Of a stretch of DNA of 64,000 nt, positions 13,792 through 35,889 are shown piece after piece. The notes beneath the pieces were generated by a model, which was given only the letters and a program-made list of their open reading frames with translations, was not told where the DNA came from and ran no database searches. How positions within the stretch are numbered: position 1 is the stretch's first letter; each line of letters starts with the position of its first letter. This DNA comes from Actinospineispora spinosispora DSM 44797. GTDB taxonomy: Bacteria; Actinomycetota; Actinomycetes; Mycobacteriales; Pseudonocardiaceae. The DNA is taken from NCBI RefSeq assembly GCF_000429025.1, contig NZ_AUBB01000021.1, positions 1 through 64,000 of the forward strand. The letters run 5' to 3'. A program made the position numbers and the translations under genes.

Positions 13792-14265
13792 TCAGTAGTC
13801 GGGCGAGATATCCTCGTAAGCGGATTGATGTTCGGTAATTTCGAACAAGGTGCGCATGAAGTGTCGGTAGTTCTCAGGTCCGACGAGCTGCGCCAAGCGT
13901 TTCTGCATGGACACCAAGATCGCATCGGCCGCGCGTATCTGAGCTAGGCCATGTTCGGTCGGGTAGACCAGCTTCGCCCGACGATCGCGCGGATCCGGAC
14001 GCCGCTCGGCGTAGCCCAGGGCGACCAGATCATCAACGAGGGTTCCGATGTTCTGTTTGCGCTGACGGGTCAGGCGAGACAATTCACTCAGGCGCACACC
14101 GTCTGTATCCAGGTAGGCGAGGATGGTTCCGTGGCGGTGCTTCAGGTCGTCATACCCCAGGTCGGCCAGTGCGGCGAATAGCTCACGCTGTACGGTGAAC
14201 AGTAGCTGGCCCGCAAGTACTGACAGATCAGGGTCGTCTTCGTGTCGTTCCGCACGGTCCGCCAT
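13792..14265 (-). CDS. MarR-family transcriptional regulator (copy 1)
   Basis: 157 residues from the ATG at 14265 with AGGAG 8 nt upstream. A winged helix lies at VRLSELSRLTRQRKQNIG, with a wing DPRDRRAKLVYPTEHG and flanking dimerisation helices. It is strongly similar over its whole length to the MarR protein at 27975, even in the ribosome-binding-site context. It has no cysteine, so it is not a thiol sensor of the OhrR kind. It is convergent with the YcaC/YceI pair and may control them or the DsbA-like gene at 14459. Confidence 0.92.
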   Translation of the reverse strand: MADRAERHEDDPDLSVLAGQLLFTVQRELFAALADLGYDDLKHRHGTILAYLDTDGVRLSELSRLTRQRKQNIGTLVDDLVALGYAERRPDPRDRRAKLVYPTEHGLAQIRAADAILVSMQKRLAQLVGPENYRHFMRTLFEITEHQSAYEDISPDY

Positions 14266-21544: not shown

Positions 21545-22921
21545 TCAGCGCACCGGCGGCATGCTGAGAACCTCGTTCAACGCTTCGGTGGAGGACGGAT
21601 GGGTGTAGATCGCGTCGCGCAGCTCGCTCGCCGGCACGTCGTGGCGCATGGCGAAGGCGACGAGGTTGATCACCTCTTGAGCGTCGACACTGAGCAGGGC
21701 GGCGCCGACGAGGCGGTCGGTCTCGCGGTCGATCAGGAACTTCATCAGTCCCCGGGTCTCGCCGACGATCTTGGGGCGCGGCATCGCGGCGATGTCGGCA
21801 ATGGGTTTCTCCAGCACCTTGATCGACAGACCCTGCTCGTGGGCCTCTCGTTCGGTGAGGCCGACGCGCGCGAGTGGGGGGCTCATGAACACGGTGAAAG
21901 GAACGTGCGTGCGGTCCTTGGTGGAACGGGCCCCGGAGCCGAGAAGCTGGTCGGCGACGACGCGGTTGTCGTCCAGCGAGATGTAGGTGAACTGTGGGCC
22001 GCCGTTGACGTCGCCGACCGCGAAGATGTGCGGCTGGCTGGTACGCAGGTGTTCGTCCACCTCGACCGCGCCGAACGATGTGGTGCGCACTCCGGCCCGG
22101 TCCAGGCCGAGGCCTTCGGTCGCGGCTTTGCGGCCGGTCGCGGCCAGTACCTTGTCGGCGGCCAGCGTGTGAGTGCGGCCGTCGCGCTGGTAGGTGATCT
22201 CCACGCCGTTGTCGATATCGCGTACCAGCGTCACGTGGGCGTCGGTCACGAACTCGACGCCGGCGCCTCGGAGGATCTCCGTGGCCGCGGCCGCGATGTC
22301 CTCGTCCTCGCGCGGCATGATCCGCTCGGCGGCGTCGAGCACGGTGACCGCACTGCCGAACTGCGCGTACATCGATGCGAACTCCACACCTACGTAGCCG
22401 CCACCGAGGATCGTCAAGCGCTTCGGTAGGTGATCGATAGCGATGAGGTCGGTGCTGGTGAGCAGGTGCTCACTGTCCGCGAGACCGGGGATGGGCGGAA
22501 CTGTCGGAGCGGCGCCAGTGTTGATCACGATGGTCTCGGCGTGCACCGTCAGGACGTCCTCGCCCCGGGTGACCTGGACCGTCTTGGGATCCAGGAACGC
22601 CGCCCTGCCGGTGATCACCGTGACCGAGTCGATCGTGTCGAGCATGGCGAAGTTCGCAGTGCGCAGTCTGGTGGTGAGCACGCGCGTCGCCTCGATGGCG
22701 GTGCGGTGACGTTCCCCGGGTTTTCCGGTCCCCGGGTGCTCGGCGTGGTGGACGAGTGACTTCGTCGGGACACAGCCGATGTTGATGCAGGTGCCGCCGT
22801 ACATCTCGGCGGATTGCTCGACCATGGCCACACGCTTACCGAGTCGCCCCATCGTGGCGGCCAACGATTTGCCGCCTTTGCCGAATCCGATGACCAGGAG
22901 GTCGACATCTATTGCGTCCAT
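21545..22921 (-). CDS. rclA: RclA-like flavoprotein disulfide reductase (putative hypothiocyanite/Cu(II) reductase)
   Basis: 458 residues. The FAD motif is VIGFGKGGKSLA; the redox pair C45/C50 lies in YGGTCINIGC, matching C43/C48 of E. coli RclA; the NAD(P) site is LGGGYVGVEFAS; the dimer-interface His-Glu pair is in THPSSTEALNE. The IGFGK opening and the FTYISLDD and VFMSPPLARVGLTE stretches follow RclA rather than lipoamide dehydrogenase or MerA, which differ there. RclA of E. coli is a reactive-chlorine defence enzyme reported to reduce hypothiocyanous acid and Cu(II). The 30-bp element at 22970-22999 lies 48 nt upstream and recurs before the Dps/hydratase operon. Mercuric reductase is rejected because the N-terminal HMA and C-terminal Cys pair are missing. 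Confidence 0.85.
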   Translation of the reverse strand: MDAIDVDLLVIGFGKGGKSLAATMGRLGKRVAMVEQSAEMYGGTCINIGCVPTKSLVHHAEHPGTGKPGERHRTAIEATRVLTTRLRTANFAMLDTIDSVTVITGRAAFLDPKTVQVTRGEDVLTVHAETIVINTGAAPTVPPIPGLADSEHLLTSTDLIAIDHLPKRLTILGGGYVGVEFASMYAQFGSAVTVLDAAERIMPREDEDIAAAATEILRGAGVEFVTDAHVTLVRDIDNGVEITYQRDGRTHTLAADKVLAATGRKAATEGLGLDRAGVRTTSFGAVEVDEHLRTSQPHIFAVGDVNGGPQFTYISLDDNRVVADQLLGSGARSTKDRTHVPFTVFMSPPLARVGLTEREAHEQGLSIKVLEKPIADIAAMPRPKIVGETRGLMKFLIDRETDRLVGAALLSVDAQEVINLVAFAMRHDVPASELRDAIYTHPSSTEALNEVLSMPPVR

Positions 22922-22969
22922 GCAACCAGCATGCTTCGGTCGCCGATCCACGACTACGTATGAAGAACT

Positions 22970-22999
22970 CATTTTTCGTCGCGATCGGATCATGGAAGG
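22970..22999 (-). promoter_or_regulatory. Shared 30-bp element, copy A, before rclA
   Basis: Read towards rclA, this element matches 25003-25032 at 26 of 30 positions without gaps; the core TCCATGA, CCGATC and CGACGAAA blocks are identical. The gap to the rclA ATG is 48 nt, exactly as for copy B. It is the likely binding site of the AraC/RclR regulator encoded at 24051-25010. Confidence 0.7.
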
Positions 23000-23066
23000 T
23001 CTCGTGATCGTCGGGCTGTGCGATGCACACCGCGTCGCTACGTGGCGGCGTCCAGGTGTGTAGATC

Positions 23067-23738
23067 TCAGGCGGTCTCAGGCGCTAGCGCGGTGGACAGC
23101 AGACTGCCCGCGAGCTTGATCGACGCCAGGAACTGAGCGCGTCCGCCGGTCCTGTTCTTGATGTCCTCGACCTGGATGACGCCGACCACGATTCCCCAGA
23201 CCACGTCGGCCAGGGGCCCGACCGGGACGTTGCGGATCAGGCCCTTGTCCATCGCCTCGCGCAGGATCGCGCGCGCCAGTCTGAAGTCGGCCCGTCCTTG
23301 CAGGTCCAGTGCCTCGAGGGCGGTACCGTCGAGCGACTCGATGAGCCGAGTTTGGTGAAGCAGATGGGTGAGCCGAAAGCGCTCGGGATCGTCCTGATAC
23401 GACGACAACAATGCGTCGATTAATTCTTCGATTAATTCTTCGGTATTTCCGTAGGCGTTCTCCGACAGACGTTCCAGCAGAACTTCGAGATGCTCTCCGA
23501 TCTGTACGAATATCGGAAGCATCAGATGAAGGAGGATTTCGTCTTTCGTGCGGAAGTAGCCGTAGAGCGTCGGTTTCGTGATCTCCGCCCGCAGTGCGAC
23601 CTCCTCCATTGTGGTGGCGATGAAACCTCGCGCTGCGAAAGAGTCCCGAGCGGCGGCCAAGATGCTTTCCCGACGGGCGTTACGCTCACGCTCACGCCTA
23701 CGGCGGGCCACTGCGGATATCTCGCCGGCGCGAGTCAT
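23067..23738 (-). CDS. TetR-family transcriptional regulator (copy 1)
   Basis: 223 residues from the ATG at 23738 with AGGAG 6 nt upstream. The N-terminal HTH is standard: ILAAARDSFAARGFIATTMEEVA, then ITKPTLYGYFRTKDEIL in separate helices. The C-terminal ligand domain has a tail VWGIVVGVIQVEDIKNRTGGR shared with the TetR at 35230, so the two are paralogues. It lies between rclA and rclR on the same strand. Ligand and target are unknown; a local operator in the 300 bp upstream is likely. Confidence 0.92.
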   Translation of the reverse strand: MTRAGEISAVARRRRERERNARRESILAAARDSFAARGFIATTMEEVALRAEITKPTLYGYFRTKDEILLHLMLPIFVQIGEHLEVLLERLSENAYGNTEELIEELIDALLSSYQDDPERFRLTHLLHQTRLIESLDGTALEALDLQGRADFRLARAILREAMDKGLIRNVPVGPLADVVWGIVVGVIQVEDIKNRTGGRAQFLASIKLAGSLLSTALAPETA

Positions 23739-24050
23739 CGAATCTCCTTGAAATTGGGGAGGATCTCCCTCACGCCGCGGCGGTACCGCCCTGGAACAGA
23801 GCCGTCGGGTCGGGTGCGGCCGAGGCGCTCGATCACCACGGCGTCGACGTCGTTGAGCTGGTGAACGCATTTCTTGTGCTGATGGGGCACGTTCACCTCG
23901 TAATGCGCGGCGCCGATGCGGGCAAAAGCGAGAATAGCACCTGGCACATCTATTGATCGATTCGCTCAGCGACGATCGCGCAGCCGGGCCGGCGTCCGTG
24001 GCACGCAATGTCGGCTGTCCTTGTCCCGGAGGGGCGTCCTCTGCTCGACG
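23739..24050. other. Intergenic region upstream of the TetR gene
   Basis: About 310 bp between the TetR start and the rclR stop, both on the minus strand. It should hold the TetR promoter and operator. I saw no perfect palindrome longer than 10 bp and no open frame with recognisable homology. Confidence 0.35.
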
Positions 24051-25010
24051 TCAGCGCGGCGCCGCGTGCTCGTCCGCGCTGCTCCAACGGTGCTCGCCCG
24101 CCGCGTCCTCGCGTCGTCCAGCAGCGGCGTCTCGCCGGAAGCGCGCGGGTGAGGTCCCCAGCGTGGCGCGGAAGGCTTGCGCGAACGCCGACTCCGATCG
24201 ATAGCCGACCTCGTCGGCCACCCGGGCGATCGAGTGGTCGGAATGCGTCAGCAGGTCGGCGGCCCTCATCATCCGAATCGAGGTGAGCAGTCTGGCCGCG
24301 GTGGTCCCGGTGCTTGCCGTGAAGCGCCGGATGAAGGTGGCGCGTGACATCGCGGCCGTGGCCGCCATGCGGTCGAGGGTCCATTGTTCGTCGGGACGGT
24401 CGATGACGTCAGCGATCACGCGACCGATCACCTCGTCGGCCATGGCGGTCCACAGGGCCGTAGCACCGAGCCGTTGGTCCGGGCGGCTGCGTAGTGCCAT
24501 GACGAGCAGCGCGTCGCACAACGCGGCGACGATGGCGCCCGTGCCCGGTCCATCCATGCAGGCCTCGCCGCGAAGCACGTCCGCCAGGGTGAGCGCCGGG
24601 GTATCCAGCGTGGCGTGAACCATGGGCGGCAGCAGCCGGAACAGTAGCTCGCCCGCGGCCGAATCAAAGTGGTAGTGGCCGCAGAAAAGATCGAGCTCGG
24701 GCTTGGCGTCGGCCGAGCGGCGGATCGGGAAGCTTCCTCCGGCCTCCTCGATGATGCGGTGACGCGGTCCCGAACTCGCCATCACGCGGTGCGCGGCGCC
24801 TTGCGGGAGCAGGAGGAGCTGGCCTGGGCCGAGTGCGACGGTGGAGGCACCCGAAGCCACGGTGCACCAGCCGTCGAGTACCAGGTGAAACGGCACCACG
24901 CCCGGTCCGGCACGCGGATTGTCGAGGGTGAACTGGCCGGCCAGCAGACAGCGTACGTCCACGTCACTGCCCAGCCGGGCCATCCGAACGAGCCTGCTCA
25001 CCCCGTCCAT
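24051..25010 (-). CDS. rclR: AraC-family regulator with cupin_6 sensor domain, RclR-like
   Basis: 319 residues from the ATG at 25010. The N-terminal cupin_6 domain starts MDGVSRLVRMAR like E. coli RclR (MDALSRLLML). Its C21 sits at the same position as the redox cysteine C21 of RclR, and C110 in LFCGHYHF aligns with C89 (VCG). The C-terminus has two AraC helix-turn-helix motifs (MSRATFIRRFTASTGTTAARLL; IARVADEVGYRSESAFAQAFRATLG). RclR of E. coli activates rclA on oxidation by HOCl or HOSCN. It is divergent from the Dps/hydratase operon with only 70 nt between them; the shared element overlaps its own start codon, suggesting autoregulation. Confidence 0.85.
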   Translation of the reverse strand: MDGVSRLVRMARLGSDVDVRCLLAGQFTLDNPRAGPGVVPFHLVLDGWCTVASGASTVALGPGQLLLLPQGAAHRVMASSGPRHRIIEEAGGSFPIRRSADAKPELDLFCGHYHFDSAAGELLFRLLPPMVHATLDTPALTLADVLRGEACMDGPGTGAIVAALCDALLVMALRSRPDQRLGATALWTAMADEVIGRVIADVIDRPDEQWTLDRMAATAAMSRATFIRRFTASTGTTAARLLTSIRMMRAADLLTHSDHSIARVADEVGYRSESAFAQAFRATLGTSPARFRRDAAAGRREDAAGEHRWSSADEHAAPR

Positions 25011-25032
25011 GAACCGATCCCGACGAAAGATG
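25003..25032 (+). promoter_or_regulatory. Shared 30-bp element, copy B, before the Dps/hydratase operon
   Basis: This copy matches the element at 22970-22999 at 26 of 30 positions in the same orientation relative to the downstream gene, and ends exactly 48 nt before the ATG at 25081. It overlaps the first codons of rclR. The match is not explained by coding similarity, because the rclA-side copy is non-coding. It is the likely RclR operator of both promoters. Confidence 0.7.
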
Positions 25033-25080
25033 ATCCGATCACCCGTTGTCCTCCCCATTGAGTCAGTGAACGCTTCAGGT

Positions 25081-25566
25081 ATGACGGGCAGGACTGACGG
25101 ACACGTGCGTTCCGGCGAGTTCACGGCCACGGAGCAGGCGGCGAGTCTGCAACGGGTGCTGGTGAATCTGGTCGCCCTGCGGCTACAGGGTAAGCAAGCG
25201 CAATGGACGACCGTGGCCTCGGGCGGTGGCGCGCTCGGGGGACACCTGGATGAGCTGGTCGACGATCTGGGGAAATCCGGCGACCGGGTTGCCGAACGGA
25301 TCCGTGAGCTCGGTGCGGTCCCCGACGGCAGGGCCCCGACAGTGGTCGCGGGCGCAGGTCTGGATCCCTTCCCCCTTGGCGAGCACACCGGTCCGGTGGC
25401 GGCGCGCCTCGTGGCTGATCGGCTGCGGACCGTGGCGGGTGTCGTGCGCGCCGCGCGGGACGACGTCGACGCGGACGATCCGGCGACCGCGGACCTGTTG
25501 CGTCAGATCGTCGAATCCATCGACAGGCACGCCTCGCTGGTCGGTGCCGAAGCAGAGCAGGTCTGA
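25081..25566 (+). CDS. Dps-like ferritin-superfamily protein with degenerate ferroxidase site
   Basis: 161 residues with a Dps four-helix pattern: LQRVLVNLVALRLQGKQAQW, LDELVDDLGKSGDRVAERI and DDPATADLLRQIVESIDRHASL. Against E. coli Dps, H51 is replaced by Q41 and H63 by G53, while D67, D78 and E82 align with D57, D68 and E72. A normal ferroxidase reaction is therefore doubtful; DNA binding, chaperone or another scavenging role is possible. It is the first gene of an operon with the split hydratase, 33 nt before the next gene, and diverges from rclR. Confidence 0.78.
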   Translation: MTGRTDGHVRSGEFTATEQAASLQRVLVNLVALRLQGKQAQWTTVASGGGALGGHLDELVDDLGKSGDRVAERIRELGAVPDGRAPTVVAGAGLDPFPLGEHTGPVAARLVADRLRTVAGVVRAARDDVDADDPATADLLRQIVESIDRHASLVGAEAEQV

Positions 25567-25599
25567 TGTCCGGAAGCCCGTGCGAGTCCAGGAGAGTGG

Positions 25600-25932
25600 A
25601 TGACTGAGAAGAGCAACCTGGTGGTGCGGCCGCCGCACGACCTGGGTGGGCTGCCCGGAGAGCCGTTGGCCCGGACAGAACACGAGATGACACCGTTCGA
25701 GAAGAACTGTCATGCGCTTCTCAACGTGCTTGCCGTGCACAGACTGGTGAACACCGAGGAGAAGCGGCGGGGAGTCGAGGACCTCGGGTCGGAGATGATC
25801 TCCACGTTGACCTACTACGAGCGGTGGGCGGTCTCGGCGGCGAAGGTCCTCGTGGAGAAGAAGATCCTCACGAACGAGGAACTGGGCAACCGGATGGCCG
25901 AGGTCCGCGCGCGGTTGCTGGCGAACTCGTGA
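25600..25932 (+). CDS. Thiocyanate hydrolase/nitrile hydratase beta subunit, N-terminal half (ScnB/ToyK-type)
   Basis: 110 residues equal to the helical N-terminal half of a nitrile hydratase beta subunit: PPHDLGGLPG, FEKNCHALLNVLA and TYYERWAVSAAKVLVEKKILT. In standard nitrile hydratases this half is fused to the SH3-like half. Here it ends at TGATG, overlapping the next gene, as in the three-subunit thiocyanate hydrolase of Thiobacillus (order scnB-scnA-scnC) and in toyocamycin nitrile hydratase. Its stop overlaps the next start, implying coupled translation and equal dosage. A hydratase activator (P14K-like) function is less likely given the complete set. Confidence 0.8.
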   Translation: MTEKSNLVVRPPHDLGGLPGEPLARTEHEMTPFEKNCHALLNVLAVHRLVNTEEKRRGVEDLGSEMISTLTYYERWAVSAAKVLVEKKILTNEELGNRMAEVRARLLANS

Positions 25933-26240
25933 TGGCGACTCGATTCCGTGAGGGCGACGAGGTACGAATCTCCGATCGGTACGCGCCGGGTCACGTGAGG
26001 ACTCCCGTCTACGTGCGCGGCATGCTCGGCGTGATCGAACGTGTGCTGCCTCGTTTTCTCAACCCCGAGCTCGAGGCGTACGGGGTCAACGAGGGAACCG
26101 AGACGCAGCTCTACCGGGTACGGCTGAGCCAGAACTCGCTGTGGCCCGATTACGACGGCGAGGCATCCGACGTGCTCGAACTGGAGATCTACGAGCACTG
26201 GCTGGAGCCGGTCGCGCCTGCATCGAACGGTAGGGAATGA
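25932..26240 (+). CDS. Thiocyanate hydrolase/nitrile hydratase beta subunit, C-terminal half (ScnA-type)
   Basis: 102 residues forming the SH3-like half of the beta subunit: FREGDEVRISDRYAPGHVRTP, YVRGMLGVIERV, then YRVRLSQNSLWPDYDG and LEIYEHWLEP. The LWPDY and VYVRG segments are hallmarks of the hydratase beta C-terminus. The start overlaps the preceding stop (TGATG), and the gene is followed 2 nt later by the alpha-type subunit. Together with the 25600 product it reconstitutes a beta subunit of about 212 residues, the normal size. Confidence 0.82.
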   Translation: MATRFREGDEVRISDRYAPGHVRTPVYVRGMLGVIERVLPRFLNPELEAYGVNEGTETQLYRVRLSQNSLWPDYDGEASDVLELEIYEHWLEPVAPASNGRE

Positions 26241-26242
26241 CG

Positions 26243-26869
26243 ATGTCAGCACATCTTCACGACGACCCGCACGCTCCGATCGAGGAGAACCCGGAGGAAC
26301 CTGACTACTTCGACGTGTTGCAGACCGCGATCAGGGAGCTCCTCGTCGAGAAGGGCCTGATCGGCGCGGGTGAGGTCCGCGCCATGATCGAGACGCTCGA
26401 CGCGCACGCACCGGCTCTCGGGTCCGCTCTCGTGGCGCGCGCTTGGTCCGACCCGGACTTCAAGGAGCGGTTGCTCGCTGACGGCACCGCCGCCATCGAG
26501 GAATTCGGCATCGACAACTACGACGGTACCGAGCTGATCGTTCTGGAACAGACACCCGACACGCACAACCTGGTCGTCTGCACTCTGTGCTCCTGCTATC
26601 CGCGTCCGGTCCTGGGGTTGCCGCCCGACTGGTACAAGAGCCGTCCGTATCGGACGCGTGCCGTCCGCGAACCGCGAGCGCTCCTGGCGGAGTTCGGCAC
26701 GACCGTGCCCGAGGACGTGACCATCCGCGTCCACGACAGCAACGCGAACATGCGTTACCTCGTCCTCCCGATGCGCCCGCCGGGCACCGAGGACTGGACC
26801 GAGGAGCAACTCGCGGAGCTGGCCACCCGGGACACGATGATCGGTGTGACGACGGCACGCACGCCGTGA
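26243..26869 (+). CDS. Cobalt-type thiocyanate hydrolase gamma / nitrile hydratase alpha subunit
   Basis: 208 residues from the ATG at 26243 (AGGGA 6 nt upstream; ATG 26237 is possible). The metal-binding claw VCTLCSCYP has C113, C116, S117 and C118; threonine at the third position marks the Co(III) type. Conserved LPPDWYKS, YRTRAVREPRALLAEFG and RYLVLPMRP follow. With the two beta halves it would form an enzyme converting thiocyanate to COS and ammonia, or a nitrile to an amide. The sequence alone does not separate these. The split beta favours the SCNase/toyocamycin hydratase group. Its stop overlaps the channel gene start (GTGA). Confidence 0.88.
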   Translation: MSAHLHDDPHAPIEENPEEPDYFDVLQTAIRELLVEKGLIGAGEVRAMIETLDAHAPALGSALVARAWSDPDFKERLLADGTAAIEEFGIDNYDGTELIVLEQTPDTHNLVVCTLCSCYPRPVLGLPPDWYKSRPYRTRAVREPRALLAEFGTTVPEDVTIRVHDSNANMRYLVLPMRPPGTEDWTEEQLAELATRDTMIGVTTARTP

Positions 26870-27951
26870 GGGCGGCCTCGAACCTCCAGGACGGGCGCCG
26901 CGGTCACCACGCCGAGGAATGGCCGCCCTCGGCGTGGGCCGCCGAAGCACTCGGCACCGCGCTGCTCGTCTTCGACGCACTGAGCGCCATCGCCTTGACG
27001 ATGGCTCCTACTGCGCCGTTGCGGGCTTTGCCCGCGGAGGTACGGCTGCTCATCATCGGTGTCGTGGTGGGAGGCACCGTTGCGGTCTTCGCCATCACGA
27101 CCGCCGGCAAGAGATCTGGTGCGCACCTCAACCCCGCGGTGAGCGTGTACATGGCCTTACGCGGAGCGCTGTCCGTTCGCGATGCGGTCGCCTACTCCGT
27201 GGCGCAGCTGGCCGGGTCGGTCGTTGGTGTGCTGGTGGCACGTCTGTGTTGGCGCGGGCCGATGCTCGAGGTGTCCGATGGGCTGATTCAGCCCGGCCCC
27301 GGTGTGGACGCCGGAGGGGTTCTGCTCGGTGAGACGCTCAGTACCGTCGGACTGCTCCTCGTCCTCTCCTGGCTGGTCTCCAAGCCTCGACCGAGGGAGA
27401 CACCGTGGGTGATCGGGGGATTGATCGCCGTCCTGATCGTGATGACCGGCGCGACATCCGGCGGTAGCTTCAATCCGGCGCGTAACTTCGGTCCGTTCGT
27501 GCTGGGGTCCGACTTCGACTTCTTCTGGATCTACATGCTCGCGCCCTGCGGCGGCGCAGTGATCACCGCGGTCGCACTGCACCTGACCGGCGCCTGGACG
27601 CCGCGCACCTGCAAGCTGTGCGGGCCTGCCTTCGACGAGGAACCGATTCGCGGGGAGGACCCCGGGGGCCCCTTCCGGCAGAGGGTGTGCCGGGAGATCG
27701 AGTTGGCCGGTTTCAGCATCTACAGCCAGGGCCCAGGGGGTGGGGTGGAGGTCAGGATGTGTCCCGAAGAGTACGGCGGCGGCGTGCTCGTCAGTTGGGC
27801 CCCGCATTCCGCCGCCTGTGTGCCCCTGAACGAACGAGTGACCGCGGTCGAGAAGGCCATGGCGGATGCACTCGTGGTCGTGATGTCCGAGCTGGGGTTC
27901 AGCGCGTCGCGCCTCGGCGAGTCCTTCGCGGTCCGCGTGGCGGACGCGTGA
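26866..27951 (+). CDS. MIP-family aquaporin/aquaglyceroporin with extra C-terminal domain
   Basis: 361 residues from a GTG that overlaps the hydratase stop. The six-helix channel has two NPA boxes (HLNPAV at 88-92, FNPARN at 202-207). After the last helix, residues about 245-361 form a soluble tail not usual in the family: it starts with CKLC (C249, C252), has further cysteines, and ends in a helix-strand region (VEKAMADALVVVMSELGF). The channel part should pass water, ammonia, small neutral solutes or nitriles; the tail may regulate gating or bind metal. Translational coupling to the hydratase suggests transport of its substrate or product. Confidence 0.85.
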   Translation: MRAASNLQDGRRGHHAEEWPPSAWAAEALGTALLVFDALSAIALTMAPTAPLRALPAEVRLLIIGVVVGGTVAVFAITTAGKRSGAHLNPAVSVYMALRGALSVRDAVAYSVAQLAGSVVGVLVARLCWRGPMLEVSDGLIQPGPGVDAGGVLLGETLSTVGLLLVLSWLVSKPRPRETPWVIGGLIAVLIVMTGATSGGSFNPARNFGPFVLGSDFDFFWIYMLAPCGGAVITAVALHLTGAWTPRTCKLCGPAFDEEPIRGEDPGGPFRQRVCREIELAGFSIYSQGPGGGVEVRMCPEEYGGGVLVSWAPHSAACVPLNERVTAVEKAMADALVVVMSELGFSASRLGESFAVRVADA

Positions 27952-27974: not shown

Positions 27975-28448
27975 TCAGTCGTCGGTCAGGTGAGAAATAT
28001 AGACGCGTTGGTTCTCCGTGATCTGGAAGAAGACGCGCTTGAAACGTTGATACTCGTCGTGTCCGATGATCTGCGCGTGCCGCCGCTGCATCGCCGCCAA
28101 GATGAGGTCGGCCGCGCGCATCTGTGCGAGACCGCGCTCGGTCGGGCACACGAGCTTCGCTCGCCGGTCACTCGGATCGGGGCGTCGCGTGACGTAGCCT
28201 AGGTCTTCCAGCTCGTCGACGAGTGTGCCGATGTTCTGTTTGTACTGGTGGGACAGCCGGGAGAGCTCACTCGGGCGGACGCCGTCGGCGTCGAGGTAGG
28301 CCAGGACCGCACCGTGTCTGTGCCTCAGATCGTCGAAGCCCAGCTCCGCGAGCGCGGTGAACAGCTCGCGCTGCACCGCGAACAACAGCCGACCCGCGAG
28401 TACGCCCAGGTCAGGGTCGGTCGAGTTCCGTTCCGCGCGAGTCACCAC
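27975..28448 (-). CDS. MarR-family transcriptional regulator (copy 2)
   Basis: 157 residues from a GTG with AGGAG 8 nt upstream. It is a close paralogue of the MarR at 13792, with the same length and register: the HTH VRPSELSRLSHQYKQNIG and a wing DPSDRRAKLVCPTERG. It differs in having a cysteine in the wing region. It is convergent with the MIP gene after 23 nt. An ACCGTC/GACGGT inverted repeat upstream at 28479-28499 could be its operator. Control of the adjacent hydratase operon or of the fusion gene at 28645 is possible. Confidence 0.92.
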   Translation of the reverse strand: MVTRAERNSTDPDLGVLAGRLLFAVQRELFTALAELGFDDLRHRHGAVLAYLDADGVRPSELSRLSHQYKQNIGTLVDELEDLGYVTRRPDPSDRRAKLVCPTERGLAQMRAADLILAAMQRRHAQIIGHDEYQRFKRVFFQITENQRVYISHLTDD

Positions 28449-35229: not shown

Positions 35230-35889
35230 ATGTCCCGCACTGAGGTATTGCCGACAGTCCGGCAAAGGCATGAGCGCACGCGTGATGCTCGACGGGCGAG
35301 CATCCTTGCCGCCGCACGTGAAACCTTTGTATCGCGCGGGTTCGTGAGCGCGACGATGGAGGAGATCGCGCTGAGCGCGGACATCGCGAAGCCGACACTC
35401 TACGGCTACTTCCGCACGAAAGACGAACTGTTGCTGCAGTTGATGCTTCCGATCTTCATCGAGATCGGAGAGCAGCTGGAAAGAGTAGTGAGCCGAGTTG
35501 CCGCCGGCACATACCACGATCGCGACGATTTCATTGCTGACTTCATCGAGGCGCTGCTTGTGCCGTACCGAGACGATCCGGACGGGTTCAGGCTCACCCA
35601 GCTGCTGCACCAGAGTCGACTTGTCGAGTCATTGAACTCGGCGGCGCTGGATGCGCTCGATCGGCAAGGGCGAACGGACTTCCGGCTGGCCCGAGCTGCT
35701 CTGGAAGGTGCCATCTGCCAGGGACTGGTTCGGGACGTGGCAGTCGGACCTCTGGCTGACGTGCTCTGGGGGGTTGTGGTAGGTGTCATCCAAGTTGAAG
35801 AAATTAAGCGTAGAACGGGCGGTCGGTCGCAGTTCTCGGCCGCGATTCATCTTGCCAAGCGGGCGCTGTCGGCTGCATTGGTGCCATAG
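35230..35889 (+). CDS. TetR-family transcriptional regulator (copy 2)
   Basis: 219 residues from the ATG at 35230. The HTH region (ILAAARETFVSRGFVSATMEEIA; ADIAKPTLYGYFRTKDELLL) and the C-terminal tail (VLWGVVVGVIQVEEIKRRTGGR) closely match the TetR at 23067. The longer in-frame start at 35176 adds unstructured residues without homology. It lies between the AKR-like gene and the SARP at 36168 and may repress the oxidative genes or the MFS exporter at 37855. Its effector is unknown. Confidence 0.92.
   Translation: MSRTEVLPTVRQRHERTRDARRASILAAARETFVSRGFVSATMEEIALSADIAKPTLYGYFRTKDELLLQLMLPIFIEIGEQLERVVSRVAAGTYHDRDDFIADFIEALLVPYRDDPDGFRLTQLLHQSRLVESLNSAALDALDRQGRTDFRLARAALEGAICQGLVRDVAVGPLADVLWGVVVGVIQVEEIKRRTGGRSQFSAAIHLAKRALSAALVP

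Follow-up and report, generated by a model that had tools for sequence, protein, structure and literature searches.

Introduction

According to the accessible parts of two papers, the flavoprotein RclA of Escherichia coli reduces hypothiocyanite (HOSCN) (PMC12096828), and the regulator RclR is activated by oxidation of its redox cysteines C21 and C89 (PMC7464077). Here we analyze a locus of Actinospineispora spinosispora DSM 44797 in which genes for relatives of both proteins lie beside genes for a three-subunit cobalt-type hydratase of the nitrile hydratase and thiocyanate hydrolase (SCNase) family. The genes of the Thiobacillus thioparus SCNase are ordered scnB-scnA-scnC. The locus is part of a 64,000-nucleotide (nt) stretch (the window), which is located on contig 11 of a 9.54-Mb genome. 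We found a well-supported regulatory link in the sequence, namely one predicted operator common to rclA and the hydratase operon. That the substrate is thiocyanate or a related cyano compound is a well-motivated guess.

An initial annotation of the window had suggested that one regulon reduces HOSCN and then destroys the released thiocyanate, and had noted no prior description linking the two activities. Full-text searches, in a coverage that leaves out most subscription papers, likewise returned no paper joining thiocyanate hydrolase with RclA or hypothiocyanite, nor one joining nitrile hydratase with hypothiocyanite. Given this coverage, the empty searches are no proof of novelty. The papers listed for nitrile hydratase with hypochlorous acid (HOCl) looked unrelated by title, and a paper on nitrile hydratase, aquaporin and operon concerns plant hormones in its accessible part (PMC3557214).

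The main features of the locus are listed below, with coordinates in the window. Pfam profiles were scanned against 10 window proteins.

21545-22921, minus strand: rclA-like flavoprotein disulfide reductase (458 amino acids [aa]; C45/C50; Pfam Pyr_redox_2 and dimerization domain)
22952-22999, minus strand: predicted RclR-type operator 5' of rclA (core 22969-22992)
24051-25010, minus strand: RclR-like AraC regulator (319 aa; Cupin_6 and HTH_18; C21, C110-G)
25003-25050, plus strand: predicted second operator copy, 5' of the dps-hydratase operon and next to the start of rclR (core 25010-25033)
25600-25932, plus strand: beta-N hydratase subunit, equivalent to SCNase beta or the N-terminal half of nitrile hydratase beta (NHase_beta_N)
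25932-26240, plus strand: beta-C hydratase subunit, equivalent to SCNase alpha or the C-terminal half of nitrile hydratase beta (NHase_beta_C)
26243-26869, plus strand: metal-binding alpha subunit, equivalent to SCNase gamma or nitrile hydratase alpha, with CTLCSCYPRP (NHase_alpha)

RclA- and RclR-like proteins of the locus

The window RclA shares 47% identity with its E. coli counterpart, and in the alignment its redox CxxxxC motif near the N terminus (C45/C50) corresponds to C43/C48 of the E. coli protein, which bears out the RclA-like disulfide reductase first read from this sequence. The regulator is about 25% identical to E. coli RclR. Its C21 and C110-G align with C21 and C89-G of E. coli, and both redox cysteines were kept in all six aligned RclR sequences (window, Saccharopolyspora soli, G158, two paralogues and E. 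coli), as expected for the RclR-like regulator with both redox cysteines that had been proposed. Two further rclA copies (61-63% identical) and further RclR-like genes are present in the same genome. At its second rcl locus (L080, 8010-14852), two RclR paralogues flank an rclA copy.

A predicted operator common to rclA and the hydratase genes

The operator copies at 22952-22999(-) and 25003-25050(+) are identical at 75% of 48 positions. When a slightly shifted 48-mer was used, the copies matched at 34/48 positions, and the next best match in the window was 26/48. A search of the 9.54-Mb genome for the 20-bp core at up to three mismatches hit just these two copies; the reversed control gave no occurrence, and 0.05 occurrences were expected in shuffled windows. 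The gap from core to ATG is exactly 47 nt at window rclA, at window dps and at rclA of S. soli, in agreement with the claim of the same element at the same distance (48 nt) 5' of the genes of both promoters. The shared repeat is thus real, with the amendment that the second copy also adjoins the rclR start, which its 48-nt form overlaps.

The operator comprises two TGAnCCGATc-like half-sites spaced 21 bp. Half-sites about two helix turns apart fit an AraC-type protein. Among shifts of 15 to 29 bp, the 21-bp shift was one of the two best self-matches in 6/6 copies and the best or tied in four, a result that lacks a chance control; in the window rclA copy, the half-site repeat is weak (5/12). 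In an alignment that includes a weaker one located before an RclR paralogue, the copies have the following sequence:

CCaTGAnCCGATcnCGACGaAAaaTGAgCCgnTCATgCGTnGTC

The S. soli cluster holds three copies, by the rclR start (one mismatch), before rclA (four mismatches) and between rclA and the hydratase genes (four mismatches). A pattern designed on the five close copies (two from the window, three from S. soli) was run at up to one mismatch on 297 genomes of the family. It matched six times: twice in the window genome, three times in the S. soli cluster and once in G158, a genome of another genus. The reversed pattern gave no match. The matches in the window genome and in S. soli (G256) were built into the pattern, and the independent parts of this result are the G158 match and the absence elsewhere. 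All six matches adjoin rclA, rclR or the hydratase cluster. The G158 site is located between divergent rclR (66%) and rclA (75%) genes, 48 nt from the rclA start, and G158 is not among the 34/297 family genomes with a beta-N match. We conclude that this predicted operator belongs to rclR and rclA, with one copy placed before the window hydratase operon.

The rcl loci elsewhere in this genome were ruled out as operator sharers; one weak copy was found, upstream of an RclR paralogue on contig 3 (five mismatches in the 20-bp core). The core was absent at up to five mismatches from the contig 13 rclA stretch and from the second S. soli rclA stretch. The G158 site at near-equal spacing, and the cluster kept in rearranged form in S. 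soli, argue for the RclR-type regulator and common predicted operator of the initial annotation.

The hydratase belongs to a clade nearer to thiocyanate hydrolase

The hydratase has the three separate subunits and the CTLCSC metal motif expected of thiocyanate hydrolase. A tree of alpha subunits was built from 49 rows, with two reference sequences for nitrile hydratase and one for SCNase (locus L085 was left out, and the midpoint root serves for drawing). In this tree, which carries a long-branch warning with the Planktothrix row (L060) among the flagged rows, a branch with supports of 100/99 has the window clade, the SCNases and the Planktothrix row on one side and the nitrile hydratases with another group on the other. 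Supports are 97/90 for the window clade (14 rows) and 100/99 for the SCNase clade. A phylogeny of SCNase and nitrile hydratase has been published, and the window clade is not mentioned in the accessible part of that paper (PMC10098168).

Residue R123 of the alpha subunit, which follows CSCYP, corresponds to R136 of SCNase gamma. At this position, Arg is found in 14/14 clade rows and 12/12 SCNase rows, and Trp in 8/8 nitrile hydratase rows. In the alignment, PDB chain 3vyg_C, an SCNase gamma, carries Trp at 136, indicating that others have singled out this residue; no paper on it was found among the titles listed in the literature search. Of 15 columns that contrast SCNase with nitrile hydratase, the clade follows SCNase at eight, nitrile hydratase at four and neither at three. 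The best PDB match of beta-N is SCNase beta (2dd4_B, E=5.5e-13), and beta-C matched nitrile hydratase beta (1.3e-13) and SCNase alpha (2.7e-11). Judged from sequence comparison, the clade forms its own kind in the family and is closer to SCNase. The enzyme is not proven to be a thiocyanate hydrolase, and it is also no ordinary nitrile hydratase. The latter was rejected as family placement by the tree and Arg136, and was kept as a possible activity.

A toyocamycin-type biosynthetic nitrile hydratase under redox control would share the three-gene split-beta layout of ToyJKL. This explanation is very improbable. No biosynthetic genes were found among the 10 window proteins scanned, and another split-beta group of the family (13 rows) lies far off on the tree, a comparison that ToyJKL itself stands outside. 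This group (L015-L025, L027 and L031) has CYPxALLGP instead of CYPWP.

Three further SCNase-type loci (L042 7755-8837, L044 6094-6939 and L045 8058-9056) have both beta halves in one open frame, a layout that differs from the split genes of T. thioparus and the window. Five loci outside the clade (L036 and L042-L045) contain an extra beta-N-like frame besides the subunits. The Planktothrix hydratase is encoded by three genes on a plasmid (L060 8974-10239) next to asnB and close to genes for an amidase and an aminotransferase, and is perhaps biosynthetic.

Proposed mechanism and its alternatives

We tentatively favor an oxidant-controlled detoxification regulon, in which RclR switches rclA and the cobalt-type hydratase, and thiocyanate is the likeliest single substrate. 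By homology to E. coli C21/C89, RclR (24051-25010) would sense HOSCN or HOCl and be activated through oxidation of C21/C110. It would bind the direct-repeat sites that are shared by rclA and the dps-hydratase operon. RclA would reduce HOSCN or another HOCl-derived oxidant, and the hydratase would then hydrate a small cyano compound at its carbon-nitrogen triple bond. The best single candidate would be thiocyanate freed by RclA, which would yield carbonyl sulfide (COS) and NH3. The aquaporin encoded in the operon may serve as a path for NH3, the substrate or another small neutral solute. More specifically, the locus could provide a two-step HOSCN defense, in which one redox switch induces both the reductase, which turns HOSCN into thiocyanate, and a new-clade thiocyanate hydrolase, which destroys this product and so blocks its re-oxidation by peroxidases. 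This form is possible, if on the doubtful side. Were it true, bacteria would not stop at reducing hypothiocyanite and would also clear the thiocyanate from which it is regenerated; a clade of proteins that currently bear the name nitrile hydratase would have to be renamed. Whatever the substrate, an actinomycete RclR-type regulon whose operator is defined offers a clear test bed.

The single regulon that was originally envisaged keeps its regulator, its shared predicted operator and an enzyme from the SCNase side of the tree; against it stand a linkage to rcl genes at 2/15 loci and an enzyme outside the SCNase clade. The points that weigh against thiocyanate detoxification are the following. 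The alpha subunit passes the NCBIfam cut-off for nitrile hydratase (TIGR01323, 263.6 versus 249.85 bits) and stays under that for SCNase gamma (TIGR03887, 235.7 versus 291.45 bits); an annotated Roseomonas ScnC scores 359.2 bits against the SCNase gamma model. In the PDB search, nitrile hydratases were the top matches of the window alpha subunit (2.7e-69 versus 2.6e-54 for SCNase gamma). The window clade lies outside the clade of the characterized SCNase (branch 0.79), and Arg136 is shared by the uncharacterized Planktothrix enzyme. In beta-C, GHVRTP (the nitrile hydratase-like GHxRxP) is found where SCNase has FYTRT, yet the end of the subunit is SCNase-like. The position of SCNase beta Arg90 is occupied by Lys. 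No activator-like frame was detected; in the nine clade loci tested, just subunit frames matched, the alpha frames at 12-16 bits. The three-subunit thiocyanate hydrolase of the initial annotation thus stands as to split subunits, side of the tree and Arg136, and falls short as to SCNase clade, SCNase cut-off and FYTRT.

For the redox proteins, RclA (NF040477, 535.7 bits) and RclR (NF040475, 122 bits) are the best NCBIfam models, at scores under the equivalog cut-offs of 740 and 400, respectively. An aquaporin is poorly suited to an anion. HOSCN induced the cyanate genes cynTSX in E. coli, but the authors, in the accessible part of the paper, doubted that this was a genuine response to HOSCN (PMC12096828).

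The same regulon could instead act on another substrate. HOCl converts amino acids to nitriles. The hydratase would then act on a neutral nitrile, hydrogen cyanide (HCN) or another cyano compound that results from HOCl attack on amino acids or thiocyanate, and the amide would exit via the aquaporin. This explanation would account for the aquaporin in 12/15 clade loci, the position outside the characterized SCNase clade, the GHxRxP loop of beta-C, and the NCBIfam and PDB results for alpha, which favor nitrile hydratase. It is at odds with the SCNase-type Arg136 (14/14 clade rows, 0/8 nitrile hydratase rows) and with the SCNase side of the tree; in addition, no amidase was found among the 10 window proteins scanned, the remaining window not having been scanned for one. 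Overall, we consider it somewhat unlikely.

The detoxification regulon can also be judged by its conservation. S. soli (Pseudonocardiaceae, another genus) keeps the cluster in rearranged form. Identities are 73% for rclR, 79% for rclA and 77-88% for the three subunits, and the aquaporin fusion and marR are kept. Two features of this cluster are to be added to the unfavorable points: rclR is 3.7 kb from rclA and divergent from an isochorismatase-family gene, and, of the operator copies, the one closest to the hydratase genes does not share their strand and has four mismatches to the core. Operator control of the S. soli hydratase operon is therefore uncertain.

In a scan of genome contigs with one protein, S. 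soli was the sole match. Relatives of beta-N with at least 70% identity were detected in the own genome and S. soli among 297 family genomes, where 34 genomes matched at E 0.001, the remaining 32 at up to 42%. At the same identity, the own genome and G729 were found among 394 class genomes (2/297 in the family of G729), as well as 1/22 genomes in the genus of S. soli and 2/62 in that of the window. A draw of 397 genomes of the order contained the own gene and two 39-40% relatives at E 1e-15. The family, class, order and genus draws overlap. Plasmids yielded 18 records, one from Streptomyces at 70% and the others below 60%; 12 of them were inspected at the locus level (H3, H7 and H13-H16 were left out).

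In total, 15 loci of the hydratase clade were compared (the window, L035, L041, L049-L058, L061, which is cut by a contig end, and L085); members of the clade are likewise found in Streptomyces and Alphaproteobacteria. Genes rclA and rclR adjoin the hydratase in two of them, the window and S. soli, which is a further point to be set against the regulon. In Agrobacterium cl001 (L053), a 36% RclA relative is encoded 1.2 kb upstream, and 12/15 loci have neither rclA nor rclR at E 1e-4 within the stretches examined. Genome G1229, from the window's own genus, has the module, and lacks rclA, rclR and the operator (at up to four mismatches) in 19.9 kb, which also speaks against the regulon. Linkage was counted from the hydratase side; RclA itself matched in 820 plasmid records. 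A general pairing of the hydratase with rcl genes was ruled out by the locus counts, and the co-occurrence of RclA, RclR and scnBAC-like genes that had been suggested as a check was seen at the two loci named. Thus, the core role of the enzyme need not be HOSCN defense.

Such counts would suit a hydratase scavenging nitrogen or plant compounds that was captured by an RclR paralogue via local rearrangement, the RclR-like protein sensing another electrophile and no joint pathway existing. The combination of rclA and rclR was not seen at 13/15 loci, the genome encodes two more RclA proteins (61-63%) along with additional RclR-like ones, and a study of the nitrogen-regulatory protein PII tabulates, in its accessible part, two mycobacterial genes annotated as thiocyanate hydrolase (PMC11001197). 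We nevertheless judge this explanation unlikely. Although dps decayed in one of two genera, both kept the operator copies and the cluster, and the operator-to-ATG spacing was retained at rclA.

Other genes of the locus

The remaining genes are as follows.

23067-23738, minus strand: TetR-family gene between rclA and rclR (TetR_N)
25081-25566, plus strand: Dps/ferritin-like protein, first gene of the operon (Pfam Ferritin, E=2.4e-12)
26866-27951, plus strand: aquaporin with an extra C-terminal domain (Pfam MIP)
27975-28448, minus strand: MarR regulator at the operon end (Pfam)

The gene layout is as previously named, apart from the TetR gene that intervenes between rclA and rclR. The Dps-like protein and channel ascribed to the operon are both present, the channel being an aquaporin with an added C-terminal domain. 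In the Dps-like protein, Gln and Asp occupy positions where the Dps ferroxidase site has His. S. soli contains a fragment alone of this gene, with a match limited to residues 98-158, and the gene looks dispensable because of this reduction.

The C-terminal domain of the aquaporin (about 115 aa, 27598-27951) matched no Pfam family at E 1. It corresponds to a separate gene in a Streptomyces plasmid (L049 11216-11656). The rhizobial DUF302 protein that follows the aquaporin was ruled out as its counterpart, as there is no similarity. An aquaporin was annotated or matched in 12/15 clade loci (not in L051, L057 and L058), and a NicO or CbtAB transporter in 11/15, the gene tables of PLSDB for plasmid loci being incomplete. 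No such transporter was seen in the window; L054 and L061 were unscanned and L085 was part-scanned. In S. soli, a NicO gene sits between the aquaporin and marR genes. It is missing at the window locus, and the window genome has one NicO gene elsewhere.

The MarR gene is also found in S. soli, and an 85% identical copy is located upstream of another rclA in the same genome. A second, MarR-type control of rclA genes is possible, judging from this arrangement. Three related MarR genes are present in the genome (window 27975-28448, window 13816-14256 and L081 9335-9805). Between the MarR gene and the rclA copy of contig 13, a long inverted repeat was spotted by eye (L081 9055-9330). The TetR gene had no match in the S. 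soli stretch examined; it is 62% identical to a second TetR gene in the window (35230-35886).

Comparison with known systems

The window enzyme resembles T. thioparus SCNase (ScnBAC; PDB 2dd4) in its three separate subunits, its CTLCSCYPRP motif, its side of the gamma/alpha tree, the basic EExRR in beta and the LWPxY...DxLExEI stretch in the alpha subunit. It differs by forming a separate clade, by a score under the SCNase gamma cut-off, by GHVRTP in place of FYTRT, by Lys at beta Arg90, by a window without an activator-like frame and by the aquaporin fusion in its operon. With cobalt-type nitrile hydratases, it shares CTLCSC, an alpha subunit above the NCBIfam cut-off, the best PDB matches of alpha, the GHxRxP loop and YYERW in beta-N. 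Unlike these enzymes, its beta is split over two genes, Arg replaces Trp after CSCYP, no activator-like frame is found in the window, and it lies on the opposite side of the 100/99 branch.

Compared to the Rcl system of E. coli, the window encodes an RclA that is 47% identical and has the same CxxxxC motif, and an RclR with both redox cysteines encoded near rclA. It deviates in the operator that also precedes the hydratase operon and in the mere 25% or so of identity of RclR; no match to RclB or RclC was detected in the window at E 1e-5. In contrast to the window, the plasmid modules of Rhizobium, Agrobacterium, Azospirillum, Microvirga, Polymorphobacter and Streptomyces show no rclR match. 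They carry an enzyme of the same clade, and in Alphaproteobacteria the modules have the order beta-C, alpha, beta-N (9/9), with an annotated DUF302 gene in four of the nine.

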